The notes under the pieces: generated by a model | What the model was told of the DNA's origin: nothing | The model's database searches: none | Seen by the model: only the letters and a program-made list of their open reading frames with translations | Part shown: positions 34,374-38,234 of the stretch, in pieces | Layout: each line of letters opens with the position of its first letter | How positions within the stretch are numbered: the stretch's first letter is position 1 | Position numbers and translations under genes: made by a program | From: Caryophanales bacterium | GTDB lineage: Bacteria > Bacillota_I > Bacilli_A > RF39 > UBA660 | Direction of reading: 5' to 3' | Assembly (NCBI GenBank): GCA_016282415.1 | Contig: JAEEKO010000073.1 | Span: forward strand, 1 to 39,261 | DNA length: 39,261 nt

Positions 34374-35126
34374 ATGACAATGGAAGAAGCTAATAATGAA
34401 ATATTAAAAATCAGCGAAAACCCAGGATTAAGTAGTGATGCTAAAAAGAGTCGTATTCGTGTATATCAAACTTATATTATGAGTTTGAATAGTGAAGAAG
34501 AAATCTTTAGGGCAATGAAAGAATATACTGCTTCAGTAGGAATTTTTATAAGATTAACAAACGGATTGTATCAATGTCTTCCGAAGGTTGCTGATAATGA
34601 ATTATTCTTAAGGGGTTATATTTTAGAATCGAGTGTTTGTAAAGAATTAGCAGCAAAAAATATTAATTATACTCATACCGATTTAAAATTAACTTATATT
34701 CCTGAATATGAAGCAAGATATAATGCGAATTTATCTGATGTGTCAGCGGCAATTTTGTTATATGATCATATTTTAAAAATTCAGAATATTAAAAACAATC
34801 AAATAACTACGGTATCTCATAATTTAGCTGAGTTATTAAGTTCGGAGATTATTTATAAAGAATTAAGACAAAAATATGTTGATCGTAGTGGTCACGTAGC
34901 GGTGAAAACAATTACTAAATCAAAGGAACAATTAGAACAAGATTACCAAAAAGCGATTATTATGATTAATGAACTATATAATCATAATATGGTGTTAGAT
35001 AACGCTACTAAACAAATTGCATTAGATTTAATCCGTGATTTATTTGATAGTTACCAAGAAGATAAGTTTAAATTTCCAAGTGTTTTAATCGATCAAATTG
35101 ATACTCCAGATAATCTAATTGCATAA
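34374..35126 (+). CDS. Soluble helical protein of unknown function
   Basis: 250-aa ORF with GGTGAT SD, 10 nt after orf34082. Confidence 0.75.
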   Translation: MTMEEANNEILKISENPGLSSDAKKSRIRVYQTYIMSLNSEEEIFRAMKEYTASVGIFIRLTNGLYQCLPKVADNELFLRGYILESSVCKELAAKNINYTHTDLKLTYIPEYEARYNANLSDVSAAILLYDHILKIQNIKNNQITTVSHNLAELLSSEIIYKELRQKYVDRSGHVAVKTITKSKEQLEQDYQKAIIMINELYNHNMVLDNATKQIALDLIRDLFDSYQEDKFKFPSVLIDQIDTPDNLIA

Positions 35127-35130
35127 TTTT

Positions 35131-35159
35131 TTGACAAAAATCATTAATTTTGTTATATT
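35131..35159 (+). promoter_or_regulatory. Promoter of T-box/HAD/tyrS operon
   Basis: TTGACA (35131-35136), 17 nt, TATATT (35154-35159). Confidence 0.75.
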
Positions 35160-35164
35160 TAATT

Positions 35165-35296
35165 TGTTAGTGATGAACAGCCTTACAACCTGGGAGCTAA
35201 ATCGTTAATTCGCGTTATGAATGAAAGTGCATGATAACTCATGAATTAAGGTGGTACCACGGAAATGTTTCGTCCTTAAGTTCAATGAGTTTTTTA
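35165..35296 (+). ncRNA. T-box riboswitch with very short Stem I, candidate Tyr (UAC) specifier
   Basis: AAGGTGGTACCACGG T-box core at 35249-35263 and CGTCCTTaagTTCaATGAGTTTTTT terminator; TAC(A) at 35184-35186 in the stem-loop TTAG...CAG-CCTTACAAC-CTG...CTAA. Confidence 0.85.
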
Positions 35297-35318: not shown

Positions 35319-35942
35319 GTGATTAAACGACTTATATTTGATCTAGATAACACGCTTATAAAGTGGAAACCAGAGTATTTAAATGCCTTAAATCGGGCTT
35401 TAACTGAAAACAATTATCATATTGATCCTAATATTATTAATGAGTTGTTTCATTCTTATGAAGAAAACTATAATTATTATGATCAAGAAGTACTATTAAA
35501 TTATATTAATAGTAAGTTAGATGATGAAATAACGCCGAAAGTATTAGATGATTTTTTAGAATATATTGGTTATATGAGTGATTCTGATCAAGAAGTAATT
35601 GATACTTTAGAATACTTAAAAGATAAATATGAAATGGTGGTATTAACTAGATGGTTTGGTAAACCTCAAAGTAAACGATTAGAAACCGCCGGAATCTTAA
35701 ATTACTTCCAAGAAGTAGTTGGTGGTGATGAGATTATGAAGCCGCATCCTGATGCTTTTAAACTAGCAATGGGCGGTAGAAAACCAAGTGAATGTGTTGT
35801 AATTGGTGATACTTATGATGTTGATTTAATTCCAGCACAAAATTTAGGAATTAAACCCATCTTTGCTAACTTTAAAGATTTAAATAATCCCAATAATTAT
35901 CAAACCATAAAATCATTTAAAGAATTAAAAGATATTTTATAG
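35319..35942 (+). CDS. HAD-superfamily hydrolase
   Basis: LIFDLDNTLIKW, VVLTRW, KPHPDAFKLAM, VVIGDTYDVDLIPAQNLGIKPIF; GTG start behind GGTGAT. Confidence 0.9.
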   Translation: MIKRLIFDLDNTLIKWKPEYLNALNRALTENNYHIDPNIINELFHSYEENYNYYDQEVLLNYINSKLDDEITPKVLDDFLEYIGYMSDSDQEVIDTLEYLKDKYEMVVLTRWFGKPQSKRLETAGILNYFQEVVGGDEIMKPHPDAFKLAMGGRKPSECVVIGDTYDVDLIPAQNLGIKPIFANFKDLNNPNNYQTIKSFKELKDIL

Positions 35943-35957
35943 AAAGAAGGAATAAAG

Positions 35958-37178
35958 ATGAAATGTTTTGAAGATTTAGAGTGGAGAGGACTTATTAAAG
36001 ATATTTCGAGTCCAGAACTTGCTGATAAATTAAATAATGAACAATTAACTTTTTATATTGGAACTGATCCAACTGCTGATTCAATGCATATTGGACATTT
36101 TTCATCATTCTTAATTGCAACTCGTCTTGCGAAGTATGGCCATAAACCAATTTTATTAATTGGAGGTGCTACTGGTTTAATTGGAGATCCTAAACCAACT
36201 GCTGAGCGTAAGATGATTACGAAAGAAGAAGTTGAAAAGAACGTTCTTGGATTAACTAATCAAGCCAAGAAAATCTTTGGCTTTGAAGTTGTTAATAATT
36301 ATGATTGGATTTCTAAAATTAACACTATTGATTTCCTAAGAGATTATGGTAAATATATTAATGTTAATTATATGTTAGATAAAGATATTATTAATCGTCG
36401 TTTAGATACTGGTATTACGTTCTGTGAATTTGCATATACTATTTTACAAGGTTTAGATTTCTTAGAATTAAACAAAACGCATGGCGTTACCTTAGAAGTT
36501 GCTGGTTCTGATCAATGGGGTAATATTACTACTGGAATTGAACTTGCTCGTAAAAAAGATAATATTGAGTTATACGGATTAACAATGCCACTTGTTCTTG
36601 ATAGTAACGGGGTTAAATTTGGTAAGACGGAAGGTAATGCATTATGGCTAGATATTAATAAAACTTCAAGCTATGAATTATATCAATATTTAATTAATAC
36701 TGCTGATAGTTGCGTTATTGATTACTTAAAGAAATTAACTTTCTTAACCAAAGAAGAAATTGAAGCAATTGAAAAGCAACATAATGAAGCTCCAGAATTA
36801 AGATTAGCACAAAAGAAATTAGCAGAAGAAGTAATTACATTCTTACATGGTAGTGATGAATTCAATCATGCTTTAGAAGTATCACAAGCTTTATTTAGTG
36901 ATAAGATTACTACATTAACTAGTAAAGATATTAAATCTTCATTTAATGGAGTTCCAACCTTTAAAGTAGAGAATATTAATATTGTTGATTTATTAGTTAA
37001 TAATGGTATTTGTTCTTCTAAAAGAGAAGCTCGTGAATTTATTAATAATAATGCTATTTCGATTAATAACACAAAGATTAATGATGAAAACTTAGTTATT
37101 AATGATAGCATGTTAATTGATAATGAAGTAATGGTATTAAAGAAGGGTAAGAAGAATATTTATCTAGGTATTAAATAG
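35958..37178 (+). CDS. tyrS: Tyrosyl-tRNA synthetase
   Basis: YIGTDPTADSMHIGHF (HIGH), GGATGLIGDP, GSDQWGNITTG, KFGKT (KMSKS-equivalent), C-terminal S4 domain. Confidence 0.95.
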   Translation: MKCFEDLEWRGLIKDISSPELADKLNNEQLTFYIGTDPTADSMHIGHFSSFLIATRLAKYGHKPILLIGGATGLIGDPKPTAERKMITKEEVEKNVLGLTNQAKKIFGFEVVNNYDWISKINTIDFLRDYGKYINVNYMLDKDIINRRLDTGITFCEFAYTILQGLDFLELNKTHGVTLEVAGSDQWGNITTGIELARKKDNIELYGLTMPLVLDSNGVKFGKTEGNALWLDINKTSSYELYQYLINTADSCVIDYLKKLTFLTKEEIEAIEKQHNEAPELRLAQKKLAEEVITFLHGSDEFNHALEVSQALFSDKITTLTSKDIKSSFNGVPTFKVENINIVDLLVNNGICSSKREAREFINNNAISINNTKINDENLVINDSMLIDNEVMVLKKGKKNIYLGIK

Positions 37179-37238: not shown

Positions 37239-38234
37239 ATGAAAAAGCATGTTTCGCTATTATCATTAATCCTTAGTTTAGTAATCATAGTAGTTAGTAT
37301 AACCTATGCTTTTTATACTGGTGAATTGTTTAAGAGTGGTACGAGTTCTGCTGATTTAGAAACCAAGACGATGACTTTAGCATTTACGGATGGTCCAGGT
37401 ATTAATATATCGGATATTCTTCCGGGACAAAGTGTTATTAAAACTTTCACTGTTCAAAATACGGGTACTACTAGTCAAACTTATTATTTGTTATTTGATA
37501 ATGTTACTAATGAATTATCGCGTAAAGAAGATATGGTTTATACATTATCTTCAACGGGTGGTGGGGCAAGTGTTAATGTTGAAACGCAATTACCATCGTA
37601 TAAGAGTAGTTTTACCGGTAATGTAACTATTGCACCAAACACGACGCATACTTATCAATTAACAATTACTTATAAGAATCGTAATTTTGATCAAGCGGTT
37701 GACATGAATAAAATAGTTTCCGCGACTATTCAATTAAGTTTAATTAATTATGATGGTAGTCTTGAATTTGATGAAGAGTTATTAAATCAAGGACATTTCT
37801 ATCATGGTACCCATTCATTTATTAGTGATAACAATGAAAATGTTATTGGTTTCCAATTAGTTGGTGCATCGGAATCAGGTTTCGATGGAGATACTTATCA
37901 TGCGTATGACCCTGGATTATTTATTCGTTATGAAATTGAACTTGACTTAACTGGTTACACGACTTTAAGTTATAAAGTGCGCCGTATTGCGGAGCATGGT
38001 AGTTCAACGGTCTTTATTCGCCCTGCTAATGTTAATATGAGTGCAGTAACCAGTGCTGATAAATATAGTCATATCTACTGTGCGGATTTAGCATTAAATA
38101 CCTGGTATAACGAAACCATTGATGTTACGGCTTTAAACGGAAGCTATGTTATTTCCTTTGTTGGTGGATACTATGATTATACTGGTGATCCTGCTTCTGC
38201 TACTGAGTATTCGGATATTGTATTAAGTAGGTAA
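37239..38234 (+). CDS. TasA/CalY-like secreted protein with extra C-terminal beta domain
   Basis: SipW-type leader LSLILSLVIIVVSITYAFYTGELF; FTVQNTGTTSQTYYLLFDNV and ITYKNRNFDQAVDMNK; C-terminal jelly-roll-like region. Confidence 0.65.
   Translation: MKKHVSLLSLILSLVIIVVSITYAFYTGELFKSGTSSADLETKTMTLAFTDGPGINISDILPGQSVIKTFTVQNTGTTSQTYYLLFDNVTNELSRKEDMVYTLSSTGGGASVNVETQLPSYKSSFTGNVTIAPNTTHTYQLTITYKNRNFDQAVDMNKIVSATIQLSLINYDGSLEFDEELLNQGHFYHGTHSFISDNNENVIGFQLVGASESGFDGDTYHAYDPGLFIRYEIELDLTGYTTLSYKVRRIAEHGSSTVFIRPANVNMSAVTSADKYSHIYCADLALNTWYNETIDVTALNGSYVISFVGGYYDYTGDPASATEYSDIVLSR

Follow-up and report, generated by a model that had tools for sequence, protein, structure and literature searches.

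The window analysed here is a contig of 39,261 nucleotides (nt) from a Caryophanales bacterium (GenBank assembly GCA_016282415.1, contig JAEEKO010000073.1). Upstream of a gene for a HAD-family hydrolase and of tyrS it carries a leader in which an original prediction, made from the letters alone, had recognized a T-box riboswitch with a drastically shortened Stem I. Comparative sequence evidence indicates that the element is real and functional and that it is, relative to the literature consulted, a new architectural variant of the T-box, and it is very probable that this minimal riboswitch controls tyrS by transcription attenuation. The locus contains the following features.

34374-35126: open reading frame (ORF) of 250 amino acids (aa) directly before the leader, without a Pfam match
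35131..35159, plus strand: promoter TTGACA-17-TATATT with a TG extended -10, start near 35166
35167..35200, plus strand: ultrashort Stem I of 34 nt, with C-stem UUAGU/GCUAA, kink-turn GAU-GA..GA, three base pairs (bp) CAG/CUG and a 9-nt apical loop, read from the sequence
35184..35186, plus strand: specifier UAC (Tyr) in the apical loop of Stem I, followed by the purine A35187
35202..35225, plus strand: Stem IIA/B pseudoknot (UCG...CGUUA, IIB AUUC/GAAU; F-box CGUUA), separated from Stem I by 1 nt
35224..35245, plus strand: discriminator motif AAAGUG-Stem III (CAUGA/UCAUG)-AA
35236..35296, plus strand: intrinsic terminator with 5' arm AACUCAUGAAUUAAGG, 3' arm CCUUAAGUUCAAUGAGUU and a U tract
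35248-35262, plus strand: T-box core AAGGUGGUACCACGG, read from the sequence
35248..35277, plus strand: antiterminator with helix A1 AAGG/CCUU, 7-nt bulge UGGUACC and helix A2 ACG/CGU, from the Rfam alignment
35319..35942, plus strand: HAD-family hydrolase, first gene of the operon (PF13419, E 1.6e-17)
35958..37178, plus strand: tyrS, tyrosyl-tRNA synthetase (TyrRS; PF00579, E 2.3e-67, with SYY C-terminal and S4 domains)

The identity of the leader was assessed by an Infernal-type scan with the Rfam T-box model, which had been proposed as a check. Positions 35164-35280 align with RF00230 at 59.9 bits (E 1e-12 locally, 5e-13 genome-wide), and model positions 1-219 are all covered end to end, with 78 Stem I model positions reduced to 9 nt. 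Because those positions are gone, the score falls below the gathering score of 93, which is a curation threshold and not a biological feature. A default Rfam scan is silent on this leader, and others may be hidden for the same reason. Together, the full-length alignment and recurrence in at least 57 distinct leaders uphold the identification as a T-box. Seven further T-boxes were found in the same genome, with RF00230 matches of 181-204 nt vs 117 nt for the tyrS leader. Judged from the downstream proteins, they precede valS, ileS, serS, leuS, hisS, pheS and one unidentified gene, and of all the T-boxes found in the draft, only that of tyrS has the short Stem I. The folding energy of the whole leader is unremarkable (z 0.16) and uninformative in AT-rich sequence, and the -35/-10 pair by itself is no better than chance (5 sites seen, 5.1 expected). 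The significance of the leader comes from its homologues.

TyrRS was searched in 146 genomes of the bacterial family, and about 90 upstream regions were read, yielding ten short leaders that were aligned to build a covariance model, R2. The samples then searched with this model, which overlap, comprised 388 genomes of the family, 385 of the order, 395 of the class and 388 of the phylum. A parsed Stem I pattern defined at least 57 distinct short tyrS leaders, all from a single bacterial family and spread over about 20 genera; at strict thresholds R2 gave no match beyond the family in the class and phylum samples. Strong R2 matches specific for amino acids other than Tyr all carried a long Stem I, but as R2 derives from Tyr leaders, short leaders serving other amino acids may still exist. 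One further match to the short pattern, L086, arose by chance, is actually of the long form and was dropped. For 61 leaders an alignment fitted to the model was examined, and an independent MAFFT alignment of the ten initial leaders agrees with it. Across 22 modelled pairs, 97.3% of cells are paired, changes on both sides occur in 15 pairs vs 7.0 in shuffles, and sliding the pair partners destroys the pairing signal.

Stem I reads UUAGU / GAU / GA / A / CAG / CCU-UAC-AAC / CUG / G / GA / GCUAA, that is, a 5-bp C-stem, a three-base bulge followed by tandem G.A pairs in a kink-turn-like arrangement, three pairs and a 9-nt loop. The stem-loop claimed to present UAC followed by A was located at 35167-35200. 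The internal loop tgatgaa/ggag described with it is present, but is a kink-turn (GAU-GA / GA) and not a plain loop. The absence of a distal part was borne out as well: the 34-nt element ends in its 9-nt loop, lacks the interdigitated double T-loop motif of Class I, and recurs in the short relatives. The loop size refers to Watson-Crick closing, as non-canonical closing pairs are invisible to this reading. All seven modelled pairs of Stem I show double compensatory changes (99% paired), and 53 of the 57 leaders retain its kink-turn GA/GA. Furthermore, a scan free of loop letters returned UUAC[AG] in all kink-turn/9-nt-loop elements except one, which was spurious.

This degree of conservation bears on the possibility that the leader is a decaying or constitutive remnant, in which Stem I is eroding and a plain attenuator operates without sensing tRNA. 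The small draft genomes, the loss of both the T-loop module and Stem II, and repeated changes between long and short forms on the TyrRS tree would suit such a remnant. It is nevertheless very unlikely, as every Stem I pair carries compensatory changes across about 20 genera, the loop and kink-turn are near-invariant, and the pseudoknot and UGGU are retained. On the tree, short and long leaders interleave with at least 12 changes, eight of them forced by starred branches; it is a quick tree with some long branches, on which loss, regain and transfer are indistinguishable. The long tyrS leaders of the same family also pass straight from Stem I into IIA/B, by our own reading, while a small Stem II with GAA...AGUA is apparently still present in the valS leader of the window's genome. 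In the likely history of the tyrS leaders, loss of Stem II came first and loss of the distal Stem I followed in some lineages.

The claimed promoter is present at 35131-35159, with the additional TG extended -10, and its -10 box ends 7 nt 5' of Stem I. In 51 of the 57 related leaders, 7-10 nt separate the end of a -10-like hexamer from Stem I, and in 53 the distance is at most 14 nt; about 26 would be expected from shuffled sequences, and a control window gives 20. An ordinary Class I T-box with its distal Stem I further upstream or in a longer transcript would be in keeping with the long Stem I of most tyrS leaders in the family. This is extremely improbable: a covarying C-stem of its own closes the short Stem I, and the -10 box of the relatives lies 7-10 nt before it. 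Together with the -10-like hexamers of the relatives, the end of the preceding ORF at 35126 disfavours a hidden upstream Stem I.

The gap between Stem I and IIA is 0-3 nt in nearly all of the 57 leaders, and no Stem II with an S-turn lies between Stem I and IIA/B in the window or in the short relatives, an absence that the original prediction did not note. The short tyrS leaders thus have neither elbow-binding T-loops nor a Stem II S-turn. The IIB helix is supported by a complementarity of 4.74 vs 3.98 with shuffled partners (maximum 4.40 in 1000). The segment that follows fits the published discriminator motif RRRxG-Stem III-AA (PMC7583486); Stem III is 98.7% paired with compensatory changes, and the antiterminator helix is 100% paired. 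The pair adjoining the T-box bulge (35259-35273) is normally conserved as a G-U wobble, to which the main role in sensing the aminoacyl group has been ascribed; it is A-U in 8 of the 61 short leaders, including that of the window.

The 3' end of the leader is a hairpin followed by TTTTTTATTTTTT, in agreement with the transcription terminator originally predicted. Its 5' arm is formed by Stem III (3' strand), the AA and A1 (5' strand), so that terminator and Stem III are mutually exclusive, a point not noted in the original prediction. Class I T-boxes differ in this respect: their canonical terminator is described as using the 3' strands of A1 and A2 for its 5' arm (PMC7583486). The predicted terminator reaches -15.1 kcal/mol vs -4.9 to -7.1 for Stem III plus antiterminator without tRNA. 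In 55 leaders the arms pair at a mean of -12.3 kcal/mol, compared with -8.1 when partners are shuffled (-9.0 at the lowest in 200 shuffles), and the UGG lies 32-46 nt from the U tract. A terminator scan restricted to short loops returned no terminator, because this hairpin encloses the T-box core. In L027, L031 and L203, a second downstream UCUU/CCUU also captures AAGG, which would dissolve the antiterminator outright. In T-boxes that have been studied, binding of the tRNA 3' end requires Stem III (PMC7583486), which makes consumption of this stem by the terminator a plausible way of switching off.

Three terminator designs were observed in this genome: canonical (valS, leuS), Stem III-consuming (ileS, hisS, pheS, tyrS) and bulge-type (L003, upstream of serS, and L005). 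In the bulge-type leaders, the 5' arm is the T-box bulge itself; in L005, GGAUGGUACC pairs with GGUAUCAUCC at -19.6 kcal/mol.

A 2023 paper recognizes four T-box classes, in which codon-anticodon binding is augmented by an elbow-binding T-loop motif, a Stem II S-turn, or both (PMC10482949). The likeness of the tyrS leader to the actinobacterial ileS type (Class III, Nocardia farcinica and Mycobacterium tuberculosis) holds for a short Stem I without interdigitated T-loops, a kink-turn, an apical-loop specifier, the IIA/B pseudoknot, Stem III and the UGGN bulge. It is incomplete, however: Class III requires Stem II and places the specifier in an apical loop of 5-6 nt, whereas the tyrS leader has a loop of 9 nt by Watson-Crick closing, no Stem II, a transcription terminator and a predicted specificity for Tyr instead of Ile. 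A Class III-like translational T-box with an incidental hairpin and control at the ribosome-binding site would likewise have a short Stem I and an apical specifier, the combination seen in ileS of Nocardia and Mycobacterium (PMC10482949). We judge this highly improbable: Stem II is missing, the arms covary as a terminator, and in 55 leaders the hairpin ends in a U tract 5' of the ribosome site of the gene, whereas Class III controls translation by a sequestrator.

With Class I (Bacillus subtilis tyrS) the leader shares, by its specifier, Tyr specificity, as well as the tyrS target, a terminator, IIA/B, Stem III and the antiterminator, but the long Stem I and its elbow-binding T-loops are absent, as is the Stem II with S-turn. 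Class II (glyQS) likewise has no Stem II and uses a transcription terminator, yet it is glycine-only, with a long T-loop-bearing Stem I and a flexible linker for the Stem II domain, whereas the tyrS leader carries a Tyr specifier and keeps IIA/B. The long tyrS T-boxes of the same family share the target, IIA/B right after Stem I and, often, a Stem III-consuming terminator, but in them the elbow-binding module and the long Stem I that bears it are kept. Class I hits whose Stem I is truncated are mentioned in the TBDB paper, so single examples of such short leaders may already be catalogued.

The agreement of the specifier with tyrS was also confirmed at the level of sequence, since the loop carries UAC followed by A or G and tyrS lies downstream in 49 of 49 loci with a readable downstream gene. 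A tRNA-Tyr gene of a sister species, located within a tRNA cluster, has the anticodon GUA, which fits UAC, and an ACCA end, which fits the UGGU bulge. Its anticodon loop, CUGUAAA, is complementary to the leader loop beyond the codon: the invariant UUACR complements U33-A37 (UGUAA), and UUUACA of the commonest loop complements U33-A38. A U precedes UAC in every short leader vs approximately 60% of the long ones, by a crude extraction and count among related sequences. We hypothesize that extended anticodon-loop pairing may serve as compensation. Whether the leader represents a fifth T-box architecture, in which Stem I is short and kink-turned, Stem II is lacking, the transcription terminator consumes Stem III and affinity is gained through longer anticodon-loop pairing, is in our view an evenly balanced question.

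Comparison of the leaders shows the parts and their covariation, where the promoter lies, that the leader is linked to tyrS, and that Stem III and terminator exclude each other. From these we infer tRNA binding, a response to charging and the direction of that response. In the proposed mechanism, the transcript would begin at or just 5' of Stem I, and the kink-turned Stem I would offer the UAC of its apical loop to the anticodon of tRNA-Tyr, with the adjoining IIA/B pseudoknot setting the geometry without Stem II. The 3' ACCA of uncharged tRNA-Tyr would pair with UGGU in the bulge of the antiterminator, with the purines flanking Stem III lending support; Stem III would then stay closed and RNA polymerase would read through into HAD-tyrS. 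With charged or no tRNA, the terminator 3' arm would take the 3' strand of Stem III, and transcription would stop at the U tract.

Several points weigh against this mechanism. Short Stem I forms have been tied to translational T-boxes, mutations in elbow binding cripple transcriptional T-boxes, and loss of the S-turn adenosines costs Class III more than 1000-fold in binding (PMC7583486). Given this dependence on elbow and S-turn contacts, it is a puzzle how affinity suffices before the terminator is made. Additionally, several leaders, including that of the window, retain helix A1 in both states, so that the switch would rest on Stem III alone. No tRNA-Tyr gene was found among the examined tRNA-bearing loci of the draft itself, which is 85.5% complete. 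Finally, a subgroup of short tyrS leaders (L043, L166 and L167) has no GA/GA kink-turn pairs; L043 and L166 carry a longer upper helix, GAGAA/UUCUC, in place of GA/GA, and the loop, pseudoknot and terminator are retained.

One refinement of the attenuation mechanism would have the short Stem I work only with a protein helper, such as an L7Ae-type kink-turn protein, replacing the RNA contacts. The kink-turn is the best kept part other than the codon, and YbxF-type proteins bind T-box kink-turns (PMC7583486), but the GA/GA pairs are missing from a few relatives, and we consider the refinement rather unlikely.

In the published view, fast-acting transcriptional T-boxes need the elbow grip, and a conserved one with neither this grip nor the S-turn departs from it. 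If attenuation by the minimal leader is correct, it would mark a new minimum for the recognition of tRNA by RNA, provide a compact tool of about 130 nt and make the dispensability of tRNA contacts directly testable.

In the window, the HAD gene probably starts at the GTG at 35319. Among the 49 readable loci, tyrS follows the core directly at 59-96 nt in 34; HAD intervenes in 7 and another gene in 8. As HAD is missing between leader and tyrS in many relatives, HAD is optional and tyrS is the constant target. The gene after tyrS (37239-38231) has a signal-like N-terminus and a weak camelysin match (PF12389) just below the cut-off; its product is probably a TasA/camelysin-type surface protein.
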